A program made the translations under genes and the position numbers. Positions 3,387-16,902 of a stretch of DNA of 64,000 nt are shown here, in pieces. Each line of letters opens with the position of its first letter. Position 1 is the first letter of the stretch. The notes under the pieces are model-generated. The model had not been told where the DNA came from, made no database searches, and saw nothing but the letters and a program-made list of their open reading frames with translations. The stretch spans positions 6,448,001-6,512,000 of the forward strand of contig NZ_JACHND010000001.1 of assembly GCF_014205275.1 (NCBI RefSeq). The letters are read 5' to 3'. The stretch is from Sphaerisporangium siamense (lineage in GTDB: Bacteria; Actinomycetota; Actinomycetes; Streptosporangiales; Streptosporangiaceae).

Positions 3387-4898
3387 TCAGCCGAGACGGT
3401 CCAGCCATGAGAAGAAGCGGGGGAAGACCCTCCGGGCCGCGTGGTCGGAGAGCATGCCGTGGCCCTCGCCCTCGATGGCGACCCATTCCGATCCGGACGG
3501 CAGGTCGTCCAGGTGGGTGCGGACCGCCTCGGCGGGAATGCGCGGGTCCAGCTCCCCGTGCGCGACGAAGTGCGGCACGGCGGCGAACGGGACATGGTCC
3601 GCGAAGCGGCCGGCCGCCGTCCGCAGGAAGGCCTCGACCTGCGGATGCCCGGACCCGTCGAGATCCGAGGGCCGCAGGAAACCGCCGAGCAGGAACACGC
3701 CCCGCACCTCGGGCGCGATCCGGGCGACACGGCTCGCCAGGTAGCCCCCGTAGCTCATCCCGCCGACCACGACCGGGCCGATCGCGGTCCGGCGCAGCAC
3801 GGTCAACGCGTCGTCCGCGTCGTCCACCCCGTAGCGTCCGGGCAGCGGAGCGCGGACCACGGGATCGATGAGCCCGCTGCCGCGCAGGTTGGGCTGGACG
3901 ACGCGCCAGCCGGCCAATGCCAGGGACTCGGCGAACGGCGACCAGGTCGCCAGGTTCACCCCGTTCGGGCCGCCGTGCAGCAGCAGCACGGTGCCACGCG
4001 CCTGGCCCGGTGGGTCGCGGACCAGGGTGGGCAGGGGGCAGTGCGCCCCCTCGACGACGGTGCAGACGGCGGAGGGCAGGCCGTCGGCGCCCGGCGGGGC
4101 GGGGCTCAGCCGGACCTGTTCCCCGGCGGCCAGCCGCCCCGCCTCGACCAGTTCGAGCCGGCGCGGCTGCCCGGCGGAGGTCCAGCTCAGGCCGACGAGG
4201 TCGCCGTCGGCCCGCACGTCGTCCACCACGATCCCGGCGGGCTCCACCAGGCGGCGCAGCGCCCCGGAGCGTACGTCCCAGGCGTGCGGGACGCGTCCCG
4301 GCCACGTCTCCAGGACCACGACGACCTCGTGCCCGGACAGCCACGGCCCGGCCGAGATCACCGGGCCGTCCCGGTGCGAGACGCCGTCGCGGTCCACGCA
4401 CACGACCCGGCGAGCCCTGCCCTGGCGGAGCAGCAGGGCGATCCGGTCGTGTCCGGGGAACGCGGGCACGACGCACTCGGCCGTCGCTCCGGGCGGCAGC
4501 CGCACCTCCCCGGCGACGGGGTGCGCGACGGCCCGCCCGTCGGGGGTCAGGACCGCGGCGGGCGCGGCGTGCTCCGGTACCGCGCGGACGCCGGCCAGCG
4601 GTATCGGCCGGCTGCTCGCCCGCTCGGCGGCGAGGTCCTGGAACACCTCCGCGACCAGGCGCCCCCCGGTCCACTCCGGGCGGGTGTGCCATCGGGACCC
4701 GCTGGTGAGCCTGGTCCAGCGGCCGTCCGCGAGCAGCGCGAGGTGGCGATCGGACCAGGCGTCGGTGCTGACCACCGGGCCGGCGGGGGTGAGCGCGAAC
4801 GCCGGCCGCGCGGCGTCGAGCTGTGCCCGCCGGAACGGGGCGGGCAGCGGCCCGGTGATCTCCGGCGATCGGTCGGGCAGGGGAACGACGTCCGGCAT
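3387..4898 (-). CDS. S9-type prolyl oligopeptidase-family hydrolase
   Basis: A protein of 503 residues with an N-terminal beta-propeller-like part (about 1-300) and a C-terminal alpha/beta hydrolase domain. The hydrolase part shows the oxyanion motif LLLHGGPNG, the nucleophile elbow GGMSYGGY (Ser), HGELDPRIP (Asp) and EGEGHGM (His). This layout belongs to acyl-peptide hydrolase/prolyl oligopeptidase relatives (S9), which cut short peptides in the cytoplasm. It is the last gene of the putative peptide cluster, 27 bases after the preceding gene, with an AGGAAGG ribosome site. A role in removing a leader peptide or trimming the product is an inference from context. Confidence 0.85.
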   Translation of the reverse strand: MPDVVPLPDRSPEITGPLPAPFRRAQLDAARPAFALTPAGPVVSTDAWSDRHLALLADGRWTRLTSGSRWHTRPEWTGGRLVAEVFQDLAAERASSRPIPLAGVRAVPEHAAPAAVLTPDGRAVAHPVAGEVRLPPGATAECVVPAFPGHDRIALLLRQGRARRVVCVDRDGVSHRDGPVISAGPWLSGHEVVVVLETWPGRVPHAWDVRSGALRRLVEPAGIVVDDVRADGDLVGLSWTSAGQPRRLELVEAGRLAAGEQVRLSPAPPGADGLPSAVCTVVEGAHCPLPTLVRDPPGQARGTVLLLHGGPNGVNLATWSPFAESLALAGWRVVQPNLRGSGLIDPVVRAPLPGRYGVDDADDALTVLRRTAIGPVVVGGMSYGGYLASRVARIAPEVRGVFLLGGFLRPSDLDGSGHPQVEAFLRTAAGRFADHVPFAAVPHFVAHGELDPRIPAEAVRTHLDDLPSGSEWVAIEGEGHGMLSDHAARRVFPRFFSWLDRLG

Positions 4899-4925
4899 CG
4901 TTGCCTTCCTCCACGTGCGTCGCGG

Positions 4926-5645
4926 TCAGGACGGCGTGTACTGCTTCGCCCGCAGCACCACCGGCACGAGACGGTCCCCGACCAGCAGTTCCACCCGTTC
5001 CCCCGGCCGGTGGCTCTCGACCCACGCGTCCAGGTCGTCCAGGCTGCCGAACAGGAAGTCGCCGCAGGAGCGGATGACGTCGCCCGCGCGGACCCCGGCC
5101 AGGTCGGCGGGCGCGCCGACGGCCACGTCCTGCACGAGCATGCCCTCGCCGCGGACGGCTCCGACGGGGATCACCCCCAGCTCGGTGTTGTGCATGGTGT
5201 GGTAGTTCTTCGGCGTTCCGTCCAGGTAGTCGCCGAGCAGCTCCAGGAAGTGGTCCCAGTGGTGCAGGAAGCCGTCGCGCTCGAACCTGCCGTTGCCGTC
5301 CGCGGGGAAGCCGTCCTGCCGCAGCTTCAGGCGGGTGTGCGTCTCCCCCGAATCCGCCGGCACGTCCGTCAGCTCGAACGTCATGCGGATCTCGGCGTCG
5401 CAGGCGATGAGGCGGATCACCAGCTCCAGGCGGCGGAACCGGTCCAGGACCTCGATCCGCCCGCTGTAGGTGGTCGGCATGCGCGCTCCGGCGTCGTACA
5501 GCCAGCACATCGCCGCCCCTTCGCGCTCGGGCATGACACTGGCCACCGTGCCCAGCCAGTGCTCGGCCGCCCCCGGGTCGAAGATGGTCCGCCAGACCCT
5601 CTCCCGGGGGTGCCGCAGCAGGCGCTCCAGGCTGTTGCTCACCAT
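4926..5645 (-). CDS. SRPBCC-PDZ fusion protein
   Basis: A protein of 239 residues. Residues about 1-150 look like an SRPBCC/START-like (AHSA1-type) ligand-binding fold (ERVWRTIFDP, HWLGTVASVMPE, HHWDHFLELLGDYL). Residues about 165-235 look like a PDZ domain (GMLVQDVAVGAPADLAGVRA, GDVIRSCGDFLF, VESHRPGERVELLV). PDZ domains bind C-terminal peptide tails, and SRPBCC folds bind small hydrophobic ligands, so the fusion could hold a peptide product or intermediate. The start has a very strong ribosome site (AAGGAGGACACG before ATG). It lies 13 bases after the exporter gene in the same block. I know of no standard gene with this architecture in peptide biosynthesis. Confidence 0.8.
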   Translation of the reverse strand: MVSNSLERLLRHPRERVWRTIFDPGAAEHWLGTVASVMPEREGAAMCWLYDAGARMPTTYSGRIEVLDRFRRLELVIRLIACDAEIRMTFELTDVPADSGETHTRLKLRQDGFPADGNGRFERDGFLHHWDHFLELLGDYLDGTPKNYHTMHNTELGVIPVGAVRGEGMLVQDVAVGAPADLAGVRAGDVIRSCGDFLFGSLDDLDAWVESHRPGERVELLVGDRLVPVVLRAKQYTPS

Positions 5646-5658
5646 CGTGTCCTCCTTC

Positions 5659-6948
5659 TCATGCTGACTGACCGTCGGCCGGGGGCGGCGTCAGCTCCGC
5701 GACCCGGGACCGCGTGATGGCGACACTGGCGAACACGGCGAGCGCGAACATGATCGCGCCGGCGACCACGAACGACGTGCGCAGCCCGGACAGCGAGGCG
5801 AGGACGCCGCCGAGCAGCGCGCCGAACGGCATCGCCCCGTAGGTGACCAACCGGTGCACGCCGGTGACCCTGCCGAGCAGGTGGTCCGGTGTGCCGGACT
5901 GCCGCAGGGACATCTGGTTGACGTTCCAGATCGCGGCGCCGAGCCCGGCGAGGATCTCACCGGCCGCCGCGAACCACGGGTTCGGCGCCGCGGCGGTGAC
6001 CAGGCACGAGACCCCCGACACGGCCAGCGCCAGCCGGAGGCTGACCGCCGTGCCGACCCACCTGTTGAGCCGCCCGGCCTGCGCCGCGCCGAACAGGGCG
6101 CCGAGAGAGCCCGCCGCGAGCAGCAGGCTGAAGCCGAGGGCGCCGAGGCCGAAGAGCTGCTGGGCGAAGAGCACGAAGATGGCGTTCTGCGCGAGGGACG
6201 CCACGTTGAACAGGCCGGCGATGCCGGTGATCGCCCTCAGCACCGGCTGCCGCCACAGCCAGGAGAAGCCCTCGCCGACGGCCCGCCGCATGCCGCCCTC
6301 GCCGAGGGCGTTTCTGGCCACGTGGTAGTCGCCGCGCATCCTGCGCAGCAGGACGGCGCTGACCAGGAAGGACAGCGCGTCGCCCAGGAAGGGCAGCGCC
6401 CGCGACATGGTGAACAGCAGGCCGCCGAGGGGCGGCCCGACGAAGGACTCCACCGTGTTCCGCGATCCGACCAGCCACGAGTTGGCCCGCTGGATCCGCT
6501 CGGGGTCGTTCGCCACCACCTTGGGCAGCACGGCGGTGCTGGAGCTGTCGAACACGGTGTCGGCGATGGCGATGAGGAAGCCCACCACCATCAGCAGGGC
6601 GATGCCGGCGGACCCCGTCGCCACGGCCACCGCGAGCCCCGCGGTCAGTCCGGCGCGGACCAGATCGCTGATCCACATGGCGCGTTTGCGGTCCCACCGG
6701 TCGGCCATGACGCCCGCGGGCAGGGCGAACAGCAGCCAGGGCAGCCTGCCGACGACGACCACCGACGACACCACGATCGGGTCGCTGGACAGCGAGGCCG
6801 CCAGCAGGGGCAGCGCCGCGGAGGAGATGCCGTTGCCCAGGAGCGAGACGGTCGTCGCCCCCCACAGCATGGGGAAGTCGGGGGCGAGCGCGGACAGGCC
6901 GAACCGGCTCGGCCGGCGCGGACCCGTGTCGCGCAGGGTGTCCGCCAT
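5659..6948 (-). CDS. MFS efflux transporter
   Basis: A protein of 429 residues with about twelve hydrophobic segments, of the EntS-like MFS_3 type. The loop motif AGVMADRWDRKRAM between segments 2 and 3 is the MFS signature. Other visible parts are DTVFDSSSTAVLPKVV and SWLVGSRNTVESFVGPPLGG. Such proteins export small molecules with proton antiport. The start overlaps the stop of the JmjC gene (TGATG), with AAGGAC six bases upstream; an alternative ATG lies one codon earlier. Within the block it is the natural product exporter. Confidence 0.9.
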   Translation of the reverse strand: MADTLRDTGPRRPSRFGLSALAPDFPMLWGATTVSLLGNGISSAALPLLAASLSSDPIVVSSVVVVGRLPWLLFALPAGVMADRWDRKRAMWISDLVRAGLTAGLAVAVATGSAGIALLMVVGFLIAIADTVFDSSSTAVLPKVVANDPERIQRANSWLVGSRNTVESFVGPPLGGLLFTMSRALPFLGDALSFLVSAVLLRRMRGDYHVARNALGEGGMRRAVGEGFSWLWRQPVLRAITGIAGLFNVASLAQNAIFVLFAQQLFGLGALGFSLLLAAGSLGALFGAAQAGRLNRWVGTAVSLRLALAVSGVSCLVTAAAPNPWFAAAGEILAGLGAAIWNVNQMSLRQSGTPDHLLGRVTGVHRLVTYGAMPFGALLGGVLASLSGLRTSFVVAGAIMFALAVFASVAITRSRVAELTPPPADGQSA

Positions 6949-8279
6949 CATCGGTCCTTTCTGTCGGGCGCACCGGCCGGGAAGGGTCCGGGCGCGAGGT
7001 CGAGTCGCAGCAGGCCGTGCCGGAGCAACTCGGCCACCAGTTCGCGGCCCTCGCCGGCGGACGGCCCGCCTTCGCCGGAGGCCGCGCGGACCAGTTCGTC
7101 CACCCGCCATGGGGTACGGGCGAGCAGCCGCCGCACCAGGGGGGCGCAGACGGCGTCGAAGTCGTAGCGCTTGCCGGCGGACACCAGGACGCACCGGCGG
7201 CCGTCCTCCTGGAGGGCCACCGGCCGGGGCGCGGCCAGCACCACGACGGCGTCCGGCGGGCAGTCGCCGGCCTGCCCGGCCGCCGCGTACGGCAGCGCGT
7301 GCCGGGGCCTGGCCTGCGCCCGCCCGTCCCGTTCCGCGACGTACCGGCGCAGCCCGTCCTCGGTGAGCAGGGCGCCGATCTCCTCCCGCAGCACCGACAG
7401 CCGGCCCGCCGTTTCGTCGTCCCACCCGGTGAGGGGCAGGTCGGAGCGCGCCTCCGGGAGGCGGCGCTGCCGTTCGACCACCCACTTCAGGAAGTCCTCG
7501 ACCACCGGCCGCCGGAAACCGACGGTGAGGTGGACGGTGGTGCCGCCGACCGGCCGGACGGCGTGCCAGTGGCCGCGCGGCACGTACAACGCCTCGCCCT
7601 CGCACAGCTCGAACTGCCGCAGGGGGGCCGGGGGGCATTGGTTGAGGGGCTCGTCGCCGGGGAGCGGCACGGGACGGCCGGCGCCGAACAGCTGCCATTC
7701 CTTGCGGCCGTAGATCTGCAGGATGAGCCCGTCATGGTCGTCCCAGTGCGGGTCGAAGGCGCCGACCTCCCCCCACGAGGCGTAGAGGTTGACGAACACC
7801 TCCGCGCGCAGGTCGTGTTCGAGGGCTTCGGCGAGGTCCCGTACCGCCGGGACGGCCTCGTCGACCGAGCCGAAGACCAGCGTCGCGCCTTCGCGCAGCC
7901 GGGCGTGCAGTTTCGTGCTGCTGACCCGGAGCGCGGGTTCCCTGCCGACGCCGCGGCCCGGGATCGGCTCGACGTAGGACGACGGAGGCAGCGACTTGTT
8001 CGCCTTGGCCACCTGCATGCGCAGCGGCCAGGCCCGGTGGCCGTCGAGCAGCCGGTTGAGCTCGTCCCAGGGCAGCAGGTGGTGGAAGCGGTCCGGCTCG
8101 CCGGTGTCGTGGTAGCAGTCCCTCCCCCAGTACCGGTCGAGGAACCGTTCACCGGTCACGGTGGCGAGAACGCGGTCCAGCGCGTGGCCGTCCGCGCCGG
8201 TGTCGCCGGGGTTCGGCCCCGTCAGGTCGGACAGGGGGTCCAGCTCCCCGACCGTGAGCAGCCTGCGTTTCTCTGCCAT
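6948..8279 (-). CDS. JmjC/cupin-4 Fe(II) 2-oxoglutarate hydroxylase
   Basis: A protein of 443 residues of the RoxA/NO66-like JmjC class. The iron triad is visible: H178 and D180 in DPHWDDHDG, and H239 in YVPRGHWHAV. K194 in QIYGRKEW is a likely 2-oxoglutarate-side residue. These enzymes hydroxylate side chains of proteins or peptides. The C-terminal part (about 365-435: CVLVSAGKRYDF, LVRRLLARTPWRVDELV, ELLRHGLLRLD) has the look of a winged helix, which in peptide-modifying enzymes can act as a leader-recognition element; that reading is an inference. The start ATG follows GGGGGTGA, two bases after the stop of the TPR gene, so translation is probably coupled. Confidence 0.88.
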   Translation of the reverse strand: MAEKRRLLTVGELDPLSDLTGPNPGDTGADGHALDRVLATVTGERFLDRYWGRDCYHDTGEPDRFHHLLPWDELNRLLDGHRAWPLRMQVAKANKSLPPSSYVEPIPGRGVGREPALRVSSTKLHARLREGATLVFGSVDEAVPAVRDLAEALEHDLRAEVFVNLYASWGEVGAFDPHWDDHDGLILQIYGRKEWQLFGAGRPVPLPGDEPLNQCPPAPLRQFELCEGEALYVPRGHWHAVRPVGGTTVHLTVGFRRPVVEDFLKWVVERQRRLPEARSDLPLTGWDDETAGRLSVLREEIGALLTEDGLRRYVAERDGRAQARPRHALPYAAAGQAGDCPPDAVVVLAAPRPVALQEDGRRCVLVSAGKRYDFDAVCAPLVRRLLARTPWRVDELVRAASGEGGPSAGEGRELVAELLRHGLLRLDLAPGPFPAGAPDRKDR

Positions 8280-8281
8280 GA

Positions 8282-9517
8282 TCACCCCCGAGGTCGGGCG
8301 TCGGCCCGGTCGACCGGCAGGCGCGCCGCCGGATCCAGGTCCAGCAGGAGGCGGCGGGCGCGCTCGGCCTCGTCCGGCCGCCCCAGCCGCTCCGCGCACA
8401 CGGCCGCCGCGTTCGCCGCCGACGCCCCGCGCAGCGTGCCGGAGCCCGCGGCCCGCAGGAACGTCTCCAGCGCGGCCTCCCAGTCGCCGCGCCCGGCGAG
8501 GTAGGCGCCGATCGCGTAGAGCGGCTCGGGGTCGACGGGGTCGAGGGACAGCAGTTGCCCGACGGCGTCGCCGGGCGCGCTCGCCGTGCCGGTCAGGGTG
8601 TCCAGCTTGAGGTGGGCCTCCAGCACCAGCCCCCGGTTCTCCCGCTGGTAGTGGGCCTGCACCGGGTTCTCGGCCGACCGCGCCAGGGCGTCGTCGTGTT
8701 CCAGGGCGGCGCGCATGTGCGCGACCACCGGGTCCCGGTCGCGGCCGGACAGCTCGTGCAGCGCGGCGGCGCGGTGGTAGCGGCTGGTCACCAGGTGCGC
8801 CAGCCAGTCCGGCTCCGCGCCGAGACCGGTGAGCGACGCCTTCGCGTCGGCGAGCCATCGGGCCGCCTCCTCCCGATCGCTGCCACGGGCGCGGGTGGAG
8901 ACCAGTTGCAGGGCCGCGAGGGTGCGCAGAGCCGGGCGGACGGCGTTGCCGGCCAGCCAGCCGAAGATCTCGTACGGGATGGGGGACTTCCTGTTGAGCT
9001 GGTAGGCCGCGCGGGACACCTCGTAGACCAGCTGCTGGCGCAGCGGGTCGGCGTCGATCGCGAACGTGCCGACCAGGCGTACGGCGTGGCGGTGGAAGCC
9101 GAGTTGCGTGAGCAGGGCGACGACGACGACCCGGCGCGCCGTCGGCAGGTCGTCCCAGTGCTCCAGCGCCTCGACGAGGGCCTGCCAGCGCGGCGAGCGC
9201 ACCTCTTCCGGAAGCGCCCCGGGCTGTTCGCACAGGTGCCGGTGGCTTCTGGCCTGCACGACGACCTGGTAGCGGGAACTCGTCACCGACACCGTGCTGA
9301 ACCAGTTCGGCACGACCGCCTCCTCCTCGCCGGTGAGCATCCGGGCGAGGTGCACGGCGTGCCGGGAGCGCAGCGGGACCGGGCTGTCGGCATCGCGCAG
9401 GTCGAGCCACCCGGCCCAGCGCCGAGCCAGTTCGGCCGTATCGAGCGCGTCCGCCGCCGGGAACCACAGCTCGCCGAATGAGCGGGAATCGTCGCGCTGA
9501 TAGGCGAAGGAAGGCAC
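8282..9517 (-). CDS. TPR-like protein of the YcaO cluster
   Basis: A protein of 411 residues starting at GTG with AGGAG six bases upstream, nine bases after the YcaO stop. It is helical throughout, with TPR-like pairs in the C-terminal half (SRYHRAAALHELSG, PLYAIGAYLAGRGDWEAAL, GASAANAAAVCAERLGRPDE). The N-terminal part (SFAYQRDDSRSFGELWFPAA) is not recognised. No catalytic motif is seen. A scaffold or partner that holds the peptide and the YcaO enzyme together is the simplest idea, because it sits between YcaO and the hydroxylase with almost no spacing. The exact function is unknown. Confidence 0.75.
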   Translation of the reverse strand: MPSFAYQRDDSRSFGELWFPAADALDTAELARRWAGWLDLRDADSPVPLRSRHAVHLARMLTGEEEAVVPNWFSTVSVTSSRYQVVVQARSHRHLCEQPGALPEEVRSPRWQALVEALEHWDDLPTARRVVVVALLTQLGFHRHAVRLVGTFAIDADPLRQQLVYEVSRAAYQLNRKSPIPYEIFGWLAGNAVRPALRTLAALQLVSTRARGSDREEAARWLADAKASLTGLGAEPDWLAHLVTSRYHRAAALHELSGRDRDPVVAHMRAALEHDDALARSAENPVQAHYQRENRGLVLEAHLKLDTLTGTASAPGDAVGQLLSLDPVDPEPLYAIGAYLAGRGDWEAALETFLRAAGSGTLRGASAANAAAVCAERLGRPDEAERARRLLLDLDPAARLPVDRADARPRG

Positions 9518-9526
9518 GTGGGGCTC

Positions 9527-10567
9527 CTAAACCACTGGGCAGGGCAGGTGGGAAGGCGGGGTGAGCGGTTCGAAGACCTCCGAGCCGTGGCACACGACGC
9601 GGTGCACCACGTGGTCGTCGACGGAGGGCAGCCGCACCTCGACCGGCTGGCGCCCGAACAGGGCGTCCGCCGCGTCCAGCAGTGCCGCCGAGCCGGCCGG
9701 GGCCCGCCGGAGGGCGCCGCGCCCCGCGATCCGGCTCTCGACGAAGTCCAGGTGCGCCGGGCCGGCCGCGGCCACGGCGTGTCCACGGTCCCGGTCCCGG
9801 CTCTGCAGGCTGCTCGACGGGCGCGCGCCCAGGGCGAGCCTCGCCGCCACCGCCTCGTAGACCGCGTGCCGTACGGCGTCGGCGGTATCGCCTCTCGCCG
9901 CGGCGCCGCAGGTGAGGGCGGCGCCGCCGGTTCGGTGCAGCAGGGCGAGCACGATGTCGGGGTAGGGCCGGACCACGCGGACGGTGCGCAGGCGGACCTT
10001 GTGATCACGCAGGCCGGCGAGCAGTGCCGCGGGCAGTACGGAGTCGTGCAGGTGGTCCAGGTCCTCGAAGCGGATGTCACCGGTGCGCCAGCCGTGGGCC
10101 AGCACGTGCCGCTCGATCACTTCCAGCAGCGCCGACGTCCGTGCCCGCCCCCGGTCCGTGCCCGCGCCGGTGCCGGCCGACGTCTGCACGCACCACCGCT
10201 CCTCGGGCGGCGGCGGGTCCCACCCGAGGAAGACCGCCTGGGCCGGCACCGCCGTCTCGGCGCCGTCGCGCATGCCGGTCCCGGCCACCCAGTGGCAGGG
10301 CGGAGAACCGGCTTCCAGCAACGCGGCGGGTTCGACGCGGGGAAGCGCGCCCGGATCCGCCAGCAGCGGCAGCACACCGGCCGCCGACACGTGGCTCACG
10401 TGCTGGACGTACTCGCCGAGCGCGCGCCGCGCCGCCCGGCCGGGGTCGTCGTCGCAGGCGCCGCCGCTGATTCCCGACTCGTCGCTCATCCAGGCGACGT
10501 GGACGGCGCCGTTGATCAGAGGGCGCACCGTGGGCCCGGCGGCCCGCACCGCTCCCCGGTGGCTCAT
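9527..10567 (-). CDS. YcaO-domain peptide-modifying enzyme
   Basis: A protein of 346 residues. The YcaO nucleotide-binding signature is complete: SAGTGAGTDRGRARTSALLE (130-149) followed by VIERH, matching S-x-G-x-x-x-G...E-x-x-E-R. YcaO enzymes use ATP to activate backbone amides, giving azolines, thioamides or amidines. The C-terminus is proline-rich (LTPPSHLPCPVV, 335-346), comparable in position with the PxPxP tail of azoline-forming YcaOs though not identical. The start is ATG 10567 with GAGGAG upstream; longer versions lack a ribosome site. No separate E1-like/ocin-ThiF partner and no TfuA are present, so the chemistry cannot be assigned. It is the second gene of the block, after the 25-residue peptide. 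Confidence 0.87.
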   Translation of the reverse strand: MSHRGAVRAAGPTVRPLINGAVHVAWMSDESGISGGACDDDPGRAARRALGEYVQHVSHVSAAGVLPLLADPGALPRVEPAALLEAGSPPCHWVAGTGMRDGAETAVPAQAVFLGWDPPPPEERWCVQTSAGTGAGTDRGRARTSALLEVIERHVLAHGWRTGDIRFEDLDHLHDSVLPAALLAGLRDHKVRLRTVRVVRPYPDIVLALLHRTGGAALTCGAAARGDTADAVRHAVYEAVAARLALGARPSSSLQSRDRDRGHAVAAAGPAHLDFVESRIAGRGALRRAPAGSAALLDAADALFGRQPVEVRLPSVDDHVVHRVVCHGSEVFEPLTPPSHLPCPVV

Positions 10568-10698
10568 CGTCACTCCTCGGCGAACTTCGACCGTCACTCC
10601 AGGTGCGGACGCGGCGGGGTGCGTGCGCAGGCGACCCACCCCACCACGTCCTTCCGACCGGCCGCTCCCAGGTCACGGGCGCGCGGACGACCTACATG

Positions 10699-10776
10699 TC
10701 AGTAAGACTTGTTGCCGAGAACGTCGAACTCCGCGGCTTCCTCGTCGACCTGACCCAGGTCCCAGCTGATCTCCAT
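10699..10776 (-). CDS. 25-residue candidate RiPP precursor peptide
   Basis: A very short gene, ATG 10776 to TGA 10699, preceded by a strong ribosome site (AGGAGGAGGTGAAG, ending five bases before ATG). The peptide begins MEISWDLGQ, has an acidic middle (DEEAAEFD) and ends VLGNKSY. An acidic, Leu/Phe/Asp-rich leader (EFDVLG) followed by a short polar tail is typical of YcaO-type precursors. Modifiable residues in the tail are Asn, Lys, Ser and Tyr. It lies 131 bases upstream of the YcaO gene on the same strand and heads the seven-gene block. Assignment as substrate is an inference; the ribosome site and position are seen directly. I do not recognise the sequence as a known RiPP class. Confidence 0.72.
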   Translation of the reverse strand: MEISWDLGQVDEEAAEFDVLGNKSY

Positions 10777-11013
10777 GAATCTTCACCTCCTCCTGTGGTG
10801 CGTGGAATCTAGGCGGGGTCGGAGCTCTGGCGCATCTCGCAGATTGCTCAACTGGTTCACGTGCTGTCGGCATCGGTGTTATCGGCCCGCCCCATTCGGC
10901 GAACCACGGTGAGCATGAGGGCGGCTCCGGTCCGGTCATCGTCACGACCGCGGCGCCTGGAACTCGCGCCACGGTGTGGCCGAGGTCATGGATGCCTCCC
11001 AGGCCAGGCCGCG

Positions 11014-11856
11014 TTACGTTCGCGGGTGGGTGTCCAGGCTGAGGGCGAGCAGGGCGACTTGGTCGATATGGGCTGGTTCGGGCTGGTAGAGGCTCAGGCG
11101 GGTGGACGAGTGGTCCAGGTACCACACCTGGTGCTCCATCCTCAGGTCGCCAACCGCCGGATGGTGGAAGACCTTGTGGCTGGACCGGCGCGGCCGGACG
11201 TGGTGCCGGTCCCACAGCCGCCGGAAGTCGGCGCTGGCCGCGGCGAGTTCCTCGCGCACCTGGCGCAGGTCGGCCGCGTCCGGGTCGGCGCTCGTCCAAT
11301 GGTGCAGGTTCGCCACGCCCATGGCCGCCGCCCCCTCCCAGTCCCCCAGCACCGAGCGCGCGGCCGGGTGGAGAAAGGTGTAGCGCACCGTGTTGCGGCG
11401 CCGCGCCGGCCACTCGCCCAGGCCCGCGTGCAGGGCGAGGCCCTCCGGGTTGGCGGCGAGCACGTCGCCGTTACGCGCCAGCAGCAGCGCGGGCCAGGGA
11501 CGGACCCGCTCCAGCAGGTCGAGCGCGGGACGTGACGCCGACGGCGCCGGTTGCGGCCGTGTGGTGCGGCGGCCCGCCGCGTAGTCGGTGAGCCGGCCGA
11601 GATGGTCGCGTTCGTCCGGATCCAGCCGCAGCGCGGCGGCCAGTGCCTCGACGACGGCCGGGCCGGGGTTGCGCTCGCGGCCCTGCTCCAGCCGCGTGTA
11701 GTAGTCGACGCTGAGCCCGGCCAGCGCGGCGAGTTCCTCCCGGCACAGCCCCGGCGTGCGCCGCCGTCCGACGGTGGCGGGCAGACCGGCCTGCGCGGGG
11801 CTCACGCGCGCACGCCGGGCGCGCAGGAACTCCCCCAAGGGGTTGGACTGCGGCAT
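11014..11856 (-). CDS. XRE-family regulator with MmyB-like sensor domain
   Basis: A protein of 280 residues. Residues about 5-75 form a helix-turn-helix (EFLRARRARVSPAQAG, CREELAALAGLSVDYYTRLE), and the C-terminal 180 residues form the MmyB-like ligand-binding part (PWPALLLARNGDVLAANPEG, EWPARRRNTVRYTFLHP, RRSSHKVFHHPAVGDLRMEH). Starts further upstream would add a tail of unlikely composition, so ATG 11856 is chosen. It lies 237 bases upstream of the putative peptide cluster on the same strand and may control it. A broken copy of the same gene lies at the far end of the cluster (2465-2906), also on the minus strand. Confidence 0.9.
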   Translation of the reverse strand: MPQSNPLGEFLRARRARVSPAQAGLPATVGRRRTPGLCREELAALAGLSVDYYTRLEQGRERNPGPAVVEALAAALRLDPDERDHLGRLTDYAAGRRTTRPQPAPSASRPALDLLERVRPWPALLLARNGDVLAANPEGLALHAGLGEWPARRRNTVRYTFLHPAARSVLGDWEGAAAMGVANLHHWTSADPDAADLRQVREELAAASADFRRLWDRHHVRPRRSSHKVFHHPAVGDLRMEHQVWYLDHSSTRLSLYQPEPAHIDQVALLALSLDTHPRT

Positions 11857-11958
11857 CCGCCCATTCTGGCAGCCATCCGCCGCCTTCAGCCTGGCCGTGT
11901 CACTGCCAGGTACCACGCGGCCTGGTGCGCCCCGGTGGGCCCGATCAAGGGTGGACCT

Positions 11959-13286: not shown

Positions 13287-13628
13287 CTCGTTCCCCGGCG
13301 CACGTCTCGTGGCATCCGGACAGCAGTGCGGCCGAGCACGGAGAACCGCGCAGGCGACCTCGAACCCCTACAGCCCCCGACTACGCCCTCTTCCGCGATG
13401 AGCCTGCCAATGGCACCTCCACGCGTCTACCGGCCACCTGGTGTCTGTCGGCGGTCTGGTCGTGCGTACTTGTGGGTGGGCTAACGGCGGCCGACCACGA
13501 CGGACCCGCACGGGTGGGCTCTCAGACCTCTTCCAGTCCGAAGCCGGACACGTCCGGGCCCGCCGTCTACAAGCGGCGCTCACGGGTGGGTAAAGAGGCC
13601 GTCAAAGCGATGCTTTAGCGTGATCGCT
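13287..13628. other. spacer with one full dispersed repeat
   Basis: This 342-base gap has no supported gene. It holds a full repeat copy (13474-13521). The flank 13441-13560 matches 17521-17640 on the other side of the ABC exporter almost base for base over about 110 bases. Confidence 0.7.
13474..13521 (-). repeat. dispersed 48-base repeat (GGGTGGGCT...GCACGGGTGGGCTC)
   Basis: The unit starts gggtgggctaacggcggc and ends gcacgggtgggctc. The same design occurs at 17029, 17242, 17558, 49402, 49552, 49659, 49807, 53926, 54064 and 54223, in either orientation. The two ends are direct copies of GGGTGGGCT. Confidence 0.8.
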
Positions 13629-15151
13629 ATGAAGGCGGCGGCTCGGTATCTGTGCTGGCTGGCCTGGGCTCAGAAGGGTCGGGTCGGGCTGGGGGCGGCG
13701 CTGGGGACCCTCTGGATGGTGGGTCTGACGCTCCCGCCGTACCTGTTGTCGAGGGCGATCGACGACGAACTGGCGCCCGGCTGGGTGCCGGCGCTGCTCG
13801 GGGCGGGCCTGGTCAACGCCTGGCTGGCGATGTCGCGGCACCGTACGATGACCAAGATCCGGATGGACGCCAACTTCCGCACCGTGCGCGCCCTGGTCGA
13901 GCAGATCAACAAGCTGGGCGCCGACCTGCCCAAGCGCGCTTCGGCGGGCGACGTGGTGACGATCGCCATCGGCGACGTCATCGCCATCGCCGCCTCGCTG
14001 ACGGTGACCGGCCCCGGCGTGGGCGCGGTGATCAGCTACGGCGTGGTGGCGGCGCTGCTGCTGCGGGTCTCCGTGGTGCTGGCCGTGGTGGTGCTGCTGG
14101 GCGTCCCGCTGCTGGCGATCCTGCTCGGCCCGTTGCTCGGGCGGCTGATGAAGGTGCAGAACGGCTACCGCGAGGCGCAGGGCACGCTGACCACCCGCCT
14201 GGTCGACCTGATCGAGGGGCTGCGGGTGCTCAACGCCTTCGGCGGCAAGGGCGCCTACGCCGCGCGGTACCGCGCCGACTCGGCGAGCCTGCGCGAGCAG
14301 GGCTACCGGGTGGCGTCGCTGACGAGCTGGGTCGGCGCGCTGGGCGCCGGACTGCCCGCGCTGTTCCTGGCCGCCGTCACCTGGCTGGGCGCCCGGCTGG
14401 CCGCCGAGGGGGCGATCACGGTGGGCGAACTGGTCGGGGTGTACGGGTACATCGCCATGCTGGTGGTGCCGGTCTCCTTCTTCATCGAGGGCAGCTTCCA
14501 GATCAGCCACGGCCTGGTCGCCGCCCGCCAGGTCACCCGCTTCCTCGCGCTGCGCGCCGGGGAGCGGCCCCGCCCCGCCGGGCCGGACATCGCGCCGGGG
14601 ACCCTGGTGGGGCTGGTCAGCGCCCGGCCCGAGGAGAGCGTGGCGCTGCTCGAAGGGCTGGGCGGGTTCGACGGCACATCTCTGATCGCCGACCACGACG
14701 CCGCCCTGTTCGCGGGCACCTGCGCGAGGTCCTCCAGGGCCGGGGCGAGGCGGACGACGAAGCCGTCCACCGGGCCGTGCGCGTCGCCGCGGCGCAGGAC
14801 GTCGTCGCGGGGCTACGCCACGGGCTCGACTCGATGATCGAACCCGGCGGCCGCAACCTGTCGGGCGGCCAGCGTCAGCGCGTGCGCCTGGCCCGGGCAC
14901 TGCTCGCCGAGCCCGAGGTGCTGCTGGCCGTGGAGCCCACCTCCGCGCTGGACGCGCACACCGAGTCCCTCCTCGCGGGGCGGCTCCGTACGGCACGCGC
15001 CGGCCGTACGACCGTCGTGGCCACCACCTCGCCGCTGCTGCTCGCCCAGGCCGACCAGGTGCTGTTCGTCGAGGACGGGCGGGTGGTCGCCTCCGGCACC
15101 CACCGCGAGCTGATGGAGTCCACCCCCGCCTACCGATCGGTGCTCGCATGA
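13629..15151 (+). pseudogene. ABC exporter half (membrane + degenerate ATPase domain), frameshifted
   Basis: The frame runs from ATG 13629 through six membrane segments and into the nucleotide-binding domain as far as LIADHDAALFAGT (near 14719). It then resumes one frame over as LREVLQGRGEADDEAVHRAV, LSGGQRQRVRLARALLAEPE and SGTHRELMEST, to the stop at 15151. One C appears missing from ggcacctgcgc (ggcaccctgcgc would restore it). The ATPase domain is naturally degenerate: no Walker A lysine (VGLVSARPEESVALLEGLGG) and Walker B reads LLAVEPTSALD. LSGGQ is intact. This complements the next gene, as in heterodimeric exporters. It may be a real pseudogene or a single-base sequencing error. The stop overlaps the next start (ATGA). 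Confidence 0.8.
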
Positions 15152-16902
15152 ACCGCGACCTGCCCATCGCCGACCGGCGGCAGGTACGGCGGGCCGCCCT
15201 GCGCCTGGTCAGGCGCGACGTGCCGGGCTTCGTCGCGACGCTGCTGCTCAACAGCCTGGCGGCGTCCGCGGCGCTGGTCAGCCCGTGGCTGCTGGGCCGC
15301 ATCATCGACTCCATCAGCGCCGGAGGCACGGTCGACCTGCTCGCCGCGATCGCCGTGGGCGCGGCGCTGGCCCAGCTCGTCCTGTCCAGGTACGCCGAGA
15401 AGATCGGCACCCGTTTCAGCGAGCGCGTCCAGGAACACATCCGCGGCGAACTCCTGGACCGCGTGCTGGCCCTGCCCGCCGCCACGGTCGAGCACATCCG
15501 CACCGGCGACCTGACCGCCCGCGGAACCACCGACGTGGCCGTCGTCGGCCGCACTCTACGCGACGCCGCCCCCGCGATCCTCGTATCCGGCCTGCAGGCG
15601 CTCTTCCTGATCGTCGCCGTCTTCCTGGTCGACCCGGTCCTGGGCGCCTGCGGCCTGCTCGCGCCGGCCGGCATCGTGGCCGCCTCCCGCTGGTACCTTC
15701 GCCGCGCCCGCCCCGCCTACCTGGAGGAGGGCGCCGCCCGCTCGGAGCTGGCCGAGCACCTGGCCGCCAACGCCGCGGGCGCCCGCACCATCGAGGCACT
15801 GGGCCTTCAGGCCAAGCGCACGCGGGCGGCGGAACGGGTGATCGAGCGCGCCCGGGCCGCACAACTGCGGACCCTCTTCCTGCGCAGCGTGCTCTGGCCC
15901 TCGGTGGAGGTCTCCTCGCTGCTGCCGCCCGTGCTGGTACTGCTGCTCGGCGGGGTGCTCCTGGGCCGTGGCCAGGTCACGCTGGGCGCGGTCGTCACCT
16001 GCGTGCTCTACCTGCGCCAGCTCGGCCAGCCGATCGAGACGATCCTGATCTGGCTGGAGCAGCTGCAGAGCAGCGGCGCCTCCTTCGCCAGGGTCGAGGG
16101 CCTCGCGACACCGGCACGGGAGGAGGCCGCCGCCGCGGCGCCGCAGGGCGACCGCATCGAGGCGCGCGGCGTGCACTTCGCCTACGAAGGCGGCGACGAC
16201 GTGGTGACCGGCGTCGACCTGACCGTACGGCCCGGCGAGCGCCTGGCCGTCGTCGGCCCCTCGGGAGCCGGCAAGTCCACCCTGGGCAAGCTGCTGGCCG
16301 GCATCGACCGTCCCCGCCTGGGCACGGTCACCGTCGGCTCGGTGCCCGTCGCCGACCTCTCCCCCGCCCAACTCCGCGAGCACGTCGTCCTGGTCACCCA
16401 AGAACAGCACCTGTTCCTCGGCACCGTCCGCGACAACCTTCTGCTGGCCGATCCGACGGCCGGCGACGACCGCCTGGGCAAAGCGCTGGCGGCGGTCGGC
16501 GCCGACTGGGTCGCCTCGCTCGACGACGAGCTGGAGCCCCGGTCGTCCGGCTCCCCCCTCGGCCCGGACCGGGTCCAGCAGCTCGCCCTGGCCAGGGTCA
16601 TCCTGGCCGACCCGCACACCGTCATCCTCGACGAGGCCACCGCCATGCTCGACCCCCACGCGGCCAGGCGCGCCGAACGCTCGCTCGCCGCCGTCCTGGA
16701 GGGGCGGACCGTCATCGCGATCGCCCACCGCCTGCACACGGCCCGCGACGCCGACCGGGTGGTGGTCATGGACAACGGCCAGGTGGTGGAGGTCGGAGCC
16801 CACGAGGAGCTGGTCACGGCCGGCGGGGTGTACGAGGCGCTGTGGAGGTCGTGGCACGGCTCGCGGAATGTCGGCGCCGAAGACGATTCTCCTCAACACT
16901 GA
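15148..16902 (+). CDS. ABC exporter half with catalytic ATPase domain
   Basis: A protein of 584 residues. Six membrane segments fill about 1-310, and the ATPase domain fills 330-575. Walker A (GPSGAGKST), the Q-loop (VTQEQHLFLG), Walker B (TVILDEATAMLD) and the switch His (AIAHRL) are intact. The signature loop is degenerate: LGPDRVQQLAL instead of LSGGQ. The partner half has the opposite pattern, so the dimer would have one working ATP site made of this Walker A and the partner's LSGGQ. The start overlaps the partner's stop by four bases. Substrate unknown; lipid, peptide or drug export is possible. Confidence 0.9.
   Translation: MNRDLPIADRRQVRRAALRLVRRDVPGFVATLLLNSLAASAALVSPWLLGRIIDSISAGGTVDLLAAIAVGAALAQLVLSRYAEKIGTRFSERVQEHIRGELLDRVLALPAATVEHIRTGDLTARGTTDVAVVGRTLRDAAPAILVSGLQALFLIVAVFLVDPVLGACGLLAPAGIVAASRWYLRRARPAYLEEGAARSELAEHLAANAAGARTIEALGLQAKRTRAAERVIERARAAQLRTLFLRSVLWPSVEVSSLLPPVLVLLLGGVLLGRGQVTLGAVVTCVLYLRQLGQPIETILIWLEQLQSSGASFARVEGLATPAREEAAAAAPQGDRIEARGVHFAYEGGDDVVTGVDLTVRPGERLAVVGPSGAGKSTLGKLLAGIDRPRLGTVTVGSVPVADLSPAQLREHVVLVTQEQHLFLGTVRDNLLLADPTAGDDRLGKALAAVGADWVASLDDELEPRSSGSPLGPDRVQQLALARVILADPHTVILDEATAMLDPHAARRAERSLAAVLEGRTVIAIAHRLHTARDADRVVVMDNGQVVEVGAHEELVTAGGVYEALWRSWHGSRNVGAEDDSPQH

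Follow-up and report, generated by a model that had tools for sequence, protein, structure and literature searches.

A compact operon in a 64,000-nucleotide stretch of the Sphaerisporangium siamense genome (hereafter the window) very probably directs the synthesis of a ribosomally made, enzymatically modified peptide (RiPP), and by gene content it belongs to a real, conserved and rare RiPP family that we could match to no described class. Its seven minus-strand genes encode, in order, a short peptide, a YcaO enzyme, a TPR protein, a JmjC oxygenase, an MFS exporter, an SRPBCC-PDZ fusion and an S9 peptidase. A preliminary description of the window had placed a 25-residue open reading frame (ORF) at the head of these genes (10699-10776, minus strand) and had suggested a RiPP cluster outside the described classes. 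The coordinates and gaps agree with our own: 131 bases separate the peptide from YcaO, and from YcaO onward the successive genes are 9 and 2 bases apart, overlap, and are then 13 and 27 bases apart. The suggestion itself is supported by gene content, from which we infer that the peptide is chemically modified, and we regard the case for a RiPP as strong.

The peptide gene is preceded by AGGAGGAGGTGA, and GGAGGTGA stands ahead of the peptide in all eight close members of the clade. These members emerged from a search with the TPR protein across 297 genomes of the family, 17 of which contained a match: eight matches, including the window, were strong (64-100% identical along almost their full length), and the best matches in the other nine genomes were 25-37% identical. 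At all eight strong loci the peptide lies directly upstream of YcaO. A ninth, distant locus from the weak set (L033, in Nocardiopsis) encodes YcaO and TPR proteins that are 34% and 30% identical to those of the window, and it carries the peptide MEFDWDLGVQEDDQDYPVLLCTDYMA in the equivalent place, provided that an inner ATG is the start; the L033 ORF opens 8 residues earlier. This peptide retains the WDLG start, ends in a different tail (CTDY) and aligns at 46% identity with one gap. Homologous loci lacking the peptide, which would have spoken against the preliminary description, did not appear: nine of nine carry it. When a profile of the nine peptides was searched over 342 genomes of the order, ten places reached E ≤ 1e-10, namely the nine clade members and one copy in S. 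album (E 6e-11), and the remaining places had E values of 0.002 or worse. A real short peptide at the head of the operon is thereby confirmed. The S. album copy (L071; G108 C45, 9188-9754) is a decayed second copy of the cluster, in which an intact-looking peptide, MEITWDLGEVDDSADEFVVLMTKSY, is followed only by a broken S9 gene; it was excluded from all counts.

The peptide is more strongly conserved than its surroundings. In the seven close relatives it is 100, 100, 96, 96, 96, 80 and 76% identical to that of the window, versus 66-94% for YcaO, and the peptide ORF is 81-99% identical at the DNA level, versus 50-92% for the spacer that follows. Variable sites in seven ungapped peptide rows fall 4, 6 and 10 times in codon positions 1, 2 and 3, a modest third-position excess, and the stop codon is TGA, TAG or TAA. 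Eight of the 25 residues vary. The preliminary description had expected a variable tail; instead the tail is nearly invariant, reading [N/T]KSY in all eight close members and differing solely in L033. Lys23 is invariant in the same eight, and L033 has Thr in that column. We propose that WDLG...EFDVL is the leader and (G)[N/T]KSY the C-terminal core; a core so nearly fixed suggests one conserved product rather than a diversified library. A conserved hairpin after the peptide was considered and rejected, the most extreme z-score against shuffled sequences being −1.74 among eight sequences, which is not significant.

The YcaO enzymes form a rare, sharply bounded and distinct clade. In 345 genomes of the order, a YcaO profile recovered the nine members at 409-643 bits, and the tenth genome scored 62 bits. 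Among 394 genomes of the class the same profile found two of the nine and six other sequences at 49-57 bits, and among 396 genomes of the phylum it found the window and one 70-bit non-member. Given the member range, all eight weaker matches were rejected; seven of their loci (about 3.5 kb each) lack a W[DE]LG motif, and the eighth (L118) has no peptide match and a TPR match of E 0.028 only. Within genera, 2 of 16 genomes in the genus of G005 and 1 of 54 in that of G245 are members. A scan of 84,980 species genomes with two exact motifs, which may omit genomes near the window, returned six loci, all among the nine members. Searches with the TPR protein gave no match at E ≤ 1e-10 on plasmids, and its alignment found no relative among 103 stretches of viral contigs. 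Five operon proteins had no match in PADLOC, and the four PHROGs families matched by JmjC are all of unknown function.

Six of the seven genes (peptide, YcaO, TPR, MFS, SRPBCC-PDZ and S9) occur in the same order in all eight close members, and JmjC occurs in six of these. At L033 we found the peptide, YcaO, TPR and S9, behind which comes a methyltransferase, together with an MFS-like protein that scores 29.3 bits (cut-off 33.4); neither SRPBCC-PDZ nor JmjC gave a match. The defining set is therefore peptide-YcaO-TPR-MFS-S9, and JmjC is an accessory gene outside the conserved core. The YcaO-TPR-JmjC trio of the preliminary description holds for YcaO and TPR, which are present in all nine, but not for JmjC. 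Beyond the operon, only L029 and L030 have long ORFs in common; a small DUF6176 gene is the exception.

Features of the peptide-YcaO operon in the window, from the peptide's ribosome-binding stretch to the last gene
Feature	Coordinates	Strand	Basis
Ribosome-binding stretch CACAGGAGGAGGTGAAGATTC before the peptide	10777-10797	minus	From sequence
Proposed precursor peptide, 25 aa, MEISWDLGQVDEEAAEFDVLGNKSY	10699-10776	minus	Upstream of YcaO in 9/9 clade members
Spacer, 131 bases, peptide to YcaO	10568-10698	minus	G+C-rich hairpin predicted in four Sphaerisporangium-type members
Standalone YcaO (PF02624), 346 aa, no fused domain found	9527-10567	minus	Pfam match, alignment
TPR protein	8282-9517	minus	TPR matches below cut-off; all-helical model
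JmjC_2 oxygenase (PF08007)	6948-8279	minus	Domain match; NO66/MINA/RoxA-like fold; C-terminal winged-helix-like domain
MFS exporter (MFS_3; TIGR00900 under its cut-off)	5659-6948	minus	Domain matches
SRPBCC (AHSA1)-PDZ fusion	4926-5645	minus	In 8/8 close members
S9/prolyl-oligopeptidase-type peptidase (S9/alpha-beta hydrolase)	3387-4898	minus	Domain match, alignment

The DUF6176 gene stands behind S9 in four of the eight close members (L027, L029, L030 and L031) and has no match in the window. The operon of the window is bracketed by direct repeats (2447-2877 and 10996-11425; 82-86% identical, 8.55 kb apart) that take in a portion of the gene for an MmyB-type regulator (11014-11955, minus strand) and a partial second copy of it. 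Neither the regulator nor the repeat was found in the 15-18 kb stretches fetched around eight relatives, and the regulator was rejected as a part of the operon on that ground. Further on, at 13602-15674 (minus strand), lies a 690-residue ORF, at most a putative gene, that matched nothing in Pfam at E ≤ 0.01 or in NCBIfam at E ≤ 0.1.

YcaO matches PF02624 at 98.8 bits (curated cut-off 25.7), and E149 and E152, which we take to be its ATP-site ExxE motif, are invariant in all nine members. The S9 peptidase keeps S382 (within GxSxG), D451 and H480, presumably its catalytic triad, in nine of nine; prolyl-oligopeptidase-type enzymes favour short peptides, so that a 25-residue substrate would suit it. 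In JmjC, H178, D180 and H239, which we assume to be the HxD...H iron triad, are invariant in all eight aligned sequences. A structural model of JmjC with a limited mean predicted local distance difference test score (pLDDT) of 64.5 gave NO66, MINA, RoxA-type and YxbC chains as its best Foldseek matches, with template-modelling scores of only 0.28-0.44 over the query against ROX chains. At the C-terminus of that same model, strands are followed by three helices, the order seen in a winged helix resembling the RiPP recognition element (RRE). JmjC has the features expected of a ROX-type protein hydroxylase: a JmjC_2 domain, the HxD...H triad and, on this model, a C-terminal winged helix. Fusions of JmjC (PF08007) with RRE-like folds are reported from fish and algae, and their closest bacterial homologues occur in RiPP-like settings, according to the available text of PMC12710340.

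The TPR protein is modelled as an all-helical superhelix (pLDDT 83.7), and an RRE within it was rejected because the model is all helix; we propose that it is a scaffold or partner of YcaO. TPR proteins 25-32% identical to that of the window also occur at L034, L035 and L037, in tandem at the first two. These are RiPP-looking loci with genes for a carbamoyltransferase, a nitroreductase, S9 and B12-radical SAM or radical SAM enzymes; proteins of this TPR family might serve as partners in RiPP synthesis more generally. In the operon we identified no lanthipeptide enzyme, TfuA or sulfur-donor gene. Six of the nine carrier genomes, the window's own included, yielded no TfuA either; the other three contain it. 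Two of the absences noted in the preliminary description are thus upheld, and the third, of an azoline E1 partner, is taken up below.

Presence of JmjC goes together with one residue of the peptide. Residue 22 is Asn in all six operons with JmjC and Thr (codons ACC and ACG) in the two close operons without it, L031 and L032; the JmjC-less L033 has Cys in this column. Thr22 is the natural state in Streptosporangium sp. KLBMP 9127 and Nonomuraea sp. SBT364. No other of the 25 positions splits with JmjC. Outside these operons, the genomes carrying L031, L032 and L033 contain no JmjC relative closer than 26, 32 and 35%, respectively. One at 32% lies directly behind a radical SAM gene in the Nonomuraea genome (L115; G245 C309, 4046-6474), possibly another peptide-modifying pair. 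We built two trees from five joined proteins, with eight rows (without L033) and nine rows (with it). In the eight-row tree, L031 (Thr, no JmjC) is sister to L029 and L030 (Asn, JmjC) with support 99/99 (85 in a first tree under a simpler model), and a single clade of the six JmjC-bearing members is rejected by the approximately unbiased (AU) test (p 0.0147 with eight rows, 0.0353 with nine). Single-gene trees place L031 likewise for YcaO (0.978), S9 (0.912) and, weakly, SRPBCC-PDZ (0.456). Two joint changes of residue 22 and JmjC are thus favoured, though not certain. The kind of residue adds weight to the pairing: where the oxygenase is encoded the side chain is an amide, and where it is missing the side chain brings a beta-oxygen or sulfur of its own.

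The explanation that we favour is a RiPP operon in which Asn22 is hydroxylated and YcaO then acts beside residue 22; as a whole we put it at about even chances, and each of its chemical steps is one that we infer. The WDLG...EFDVL leader of the 25-residue precursor would be gripped by the YcaO-TPR pair. In operons whose peptide has Asn at position 22, JmjC would, judging from the pairing and the fold, place a beta-hydroxyl on that residue, supplying what Thr or Cys already carries; such a hydroxylation is plausible, and whether JmjC acts on Asn22 could fall either way. ATP-dependent YcaO would next activate the backbone amide adjoining residue 22. In the weakest step, the beta-oxygen of beta-hydroxy-Asn or Thr, or the sulfur of Cys, would close on the carbonyl of residue 21 to give an azoline, a ring that is unproven and that we hold to be doubtful. 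The S9 enzyme would trim the peptide and free a short product, SRPBCC-PDZ could carry out a step late in the pathway or at the C-terminus, and export would fall to the MFS protein. In its most specific form, the proposal describes a RiPP family in which JmjC makes Asn a nucleophile, a TPR-assisted standalone YcaO cyclises beta-hydroxy-Asn22 to a carboxamide-bearing oxazoline, and the Thr and Cys lineages skip the oxygenase since their nucleophile is encoded; stated so fully, it is rather unlikely. If our favoured explanation is right, a single enzyme gene, by being there or not, would reveal which residue of a 25-residue peptide is the chemical handle, and YcaO chemistry would extend to residues that a partnering oxygenase has activated. 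The explanation also makes an inexpensive and precise prediction: a shift of +16 Da at Asn22, then −18 Da or a sulfur shift. For a GNKSY fragment, the [M+H]+ values that we calculate are 568.273 without modification, 584.267 after hydroxylation, 566.257 after hydroxylation and cyclisation, and 600.245 after hydroxylation with a thioamide. The phenyl-oxazole of YM-216391, a possible precedent for beta-hydroxylation before azole closure on a residue other than Ser, Thr or Cys, was set aside because we could not confirm it; it would also differ in its oxidase, its residue and its head-to-tail cyclic product.

Several observations count against this explanation. As regards the ring, no E1-like or ocin-ThiF partner was found among the operon proteins scanned and no azole dehydrogenase was identified for YcaO. 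The nearest NCBIfam model for YcaO is SagD, at 67.4 bits, far under its cut-off of 219.25. A C-terminal PxPxP is a feature of YcaO enzymes that synthesise linear azol(in)e peptides; in its strict form it is absent here, the proteins ending in LPCPVV, ACPLA, LPCPLA, LPCPVA or, in L033, SPGYIE. As regards residue 22, at most two co-changes with JmjC are available. The TPR (0.565) and MFS (0.289) trees weakly group L031 with the other JmjC-less members, so that a single co-change would fit two of the five single-gene trees, and adding the very long L033 branch collapses the inner support of the joined tree. The Cys of L033 depends on its 46%-identical, one-gap alignment. No convincing remnant of JmjC was found in the 195-base spacer of L031: its score against the JmjC of L030 was 36, with a null maximum of 35, but its scores against those of L029 and the window were reached in 16 and 11 of 200 shuffles. 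Finally, 20 of 1848 columns in the other five proteins, counted after gapped columns were dropped, show the same split of L031 and L032 from the rest. At that background rate, the odds that chance alone gives such a split at one of 25 positions are roughly one in four, and the pairing by itself is for this reason suggestive only. It is quite possible, if somewhat short of even, that the pairing is a coincidence and that JmjC acts on another residue, such as Lys23 or Tyr25, or on another substrate. What speaks for a real link is that the split sits in the short proposed core and swaps Asn for Thr, and that the distant JmjC-less member has Cys.

A serious rival is thioamidation independent of TfuA, in which YcaO would install a backbone thioamide, as E. 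coli YcaO does on uL16, and JmjC would do no more than give Asn22 the hydroxyl group that Thr possesses from the start; we consider it a tentative possibility. E. coli YcaO has a TPR domain and thioamidates Met82 of uL16 beside the RoxA-hydroxylated Arg81, although E. coli has no TfuA (PMC13063428), and the YcaO of the operon is accompanied by a TPR protein and an oxygenase of RoxA/NO66 fold. A precedent on Asn is found in the Std RiPP, where the Asn of an SNK motif is thioamidated, as far as the accessible part of PMC13174530 describes it. Against PDB sequences the YcaO profile gave no match at E ≤ 0.01 and three up to E 10, of which the YcaO structure 6ci7 was the best, though weak (E 0.011), ahead of the azoline enzyme TruD (0.065). 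The scarcity of TfuA in the carrier genomes and the absence of an identified sulfur-donor gene from the operon tell against a thioamide, which alone would also leave the Thr or Cys at position 22 of JmjC-less operons unexplained. Closure of an amidine ring, as in bottromycin and streptamidine, in which Lys23, a freed N-terminus or a similar amine would be the nucleophile, is improbable: standalone actinobacterial YcaOs do include amidine formers (PMC8442711, in the text available) and Lys23 is invariant in the eight close members, but L033 has Thr in that column and the pairing of JmjC with residue 22 is again left without explanation. That the peptide is a conserved upstream regulatory peptide and no precursor, with YcaO modifying another protein, is very improbable: it would suit a peptide so short and nearly invariant, the hairpins predicted in spacers of Sphaerisporangium-type members and the existence of non-RiPP YcaO targets (PMC13063428, in part), but the distant relative retains the WDLG start with another tail, the spacer is poorly conserved, and an exporter and a peptidase fit a small secreted product.

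Our searches of the open-licence PMC literature, supplementary peptide lists being outside their reach, brought up no recognisable account of this operon. Tested features set it apart from three described classes: it has neither the E1 partner nor the PxPxP of linear azol(in)e peptides, no TfuA as in thioamitides, and no ALV as in streptamidines. With linear azol(in)e peptides and bottromycins it shares a YcaO of the cyclodehydratase superfamily, and bottromycin YcaOs, too, work without a C protein (from the available part of PMC4603692); by contrast, the peptide here has no Cys/Ser/Thr-rich core. Biphenomycin-type RiPPs resemble the operon in that a cupin/JmjC-type enzyme adds a hydroxyl to a residue of the core (PbsQ to Orn; proposed for BpmG), but MNIO and B12 radical SAM enzymes assemble them, and the available text of PMC12257519 mentions no YcaO. 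Std and streptamidine are the nearest RiPP parallels. Streptamidine and its standalone-YcaO actinobacterial relatives likewise have a small precursor overlooked by annotation; in the portion of PMC8442711 available, these precursors are 31-89 residues long and mostly carry a motif A or B sharing ALV. ALV is absent from all nine of our peptides, a difference that is not absolute, as that study also has 22 sequences with neither motif. The operon, with its 25-residue WDLG...[N/T]KSY precursor and its TPR, S9, MFS and SRPBCC-PDZ genes, is thus set apart on features rather than by sequence comparison to AmiD. The Std RiPP (SNKEWQE) shares a short conserved Asn-Lys core, a first step by YcaO, later hydroxylation, C-terminal processing and an MFS permease, but it uses TfuA, MNIO and a carbamoyltransferase (PMC13174530, in part), whereas the operon has TPR, JmjC and S9 and no TfuA in its own genome. 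The nearest functional parallel is E. coli YcaO on uL16, where a TPR-bearing YcaO and a JmjC-fold oxygenase act on neighbouring residues (PMC13063428, in part). Here YcaO and TPR are encoded separately, and we propose as their target a 25-residue peptide of its own, encoded in an operon with an exporter and a peptidase; if our favoured explanation is true, this operon would be the dedicated-peptide counterpart of the ribosomal E. coli YcaO/RoxA pair.

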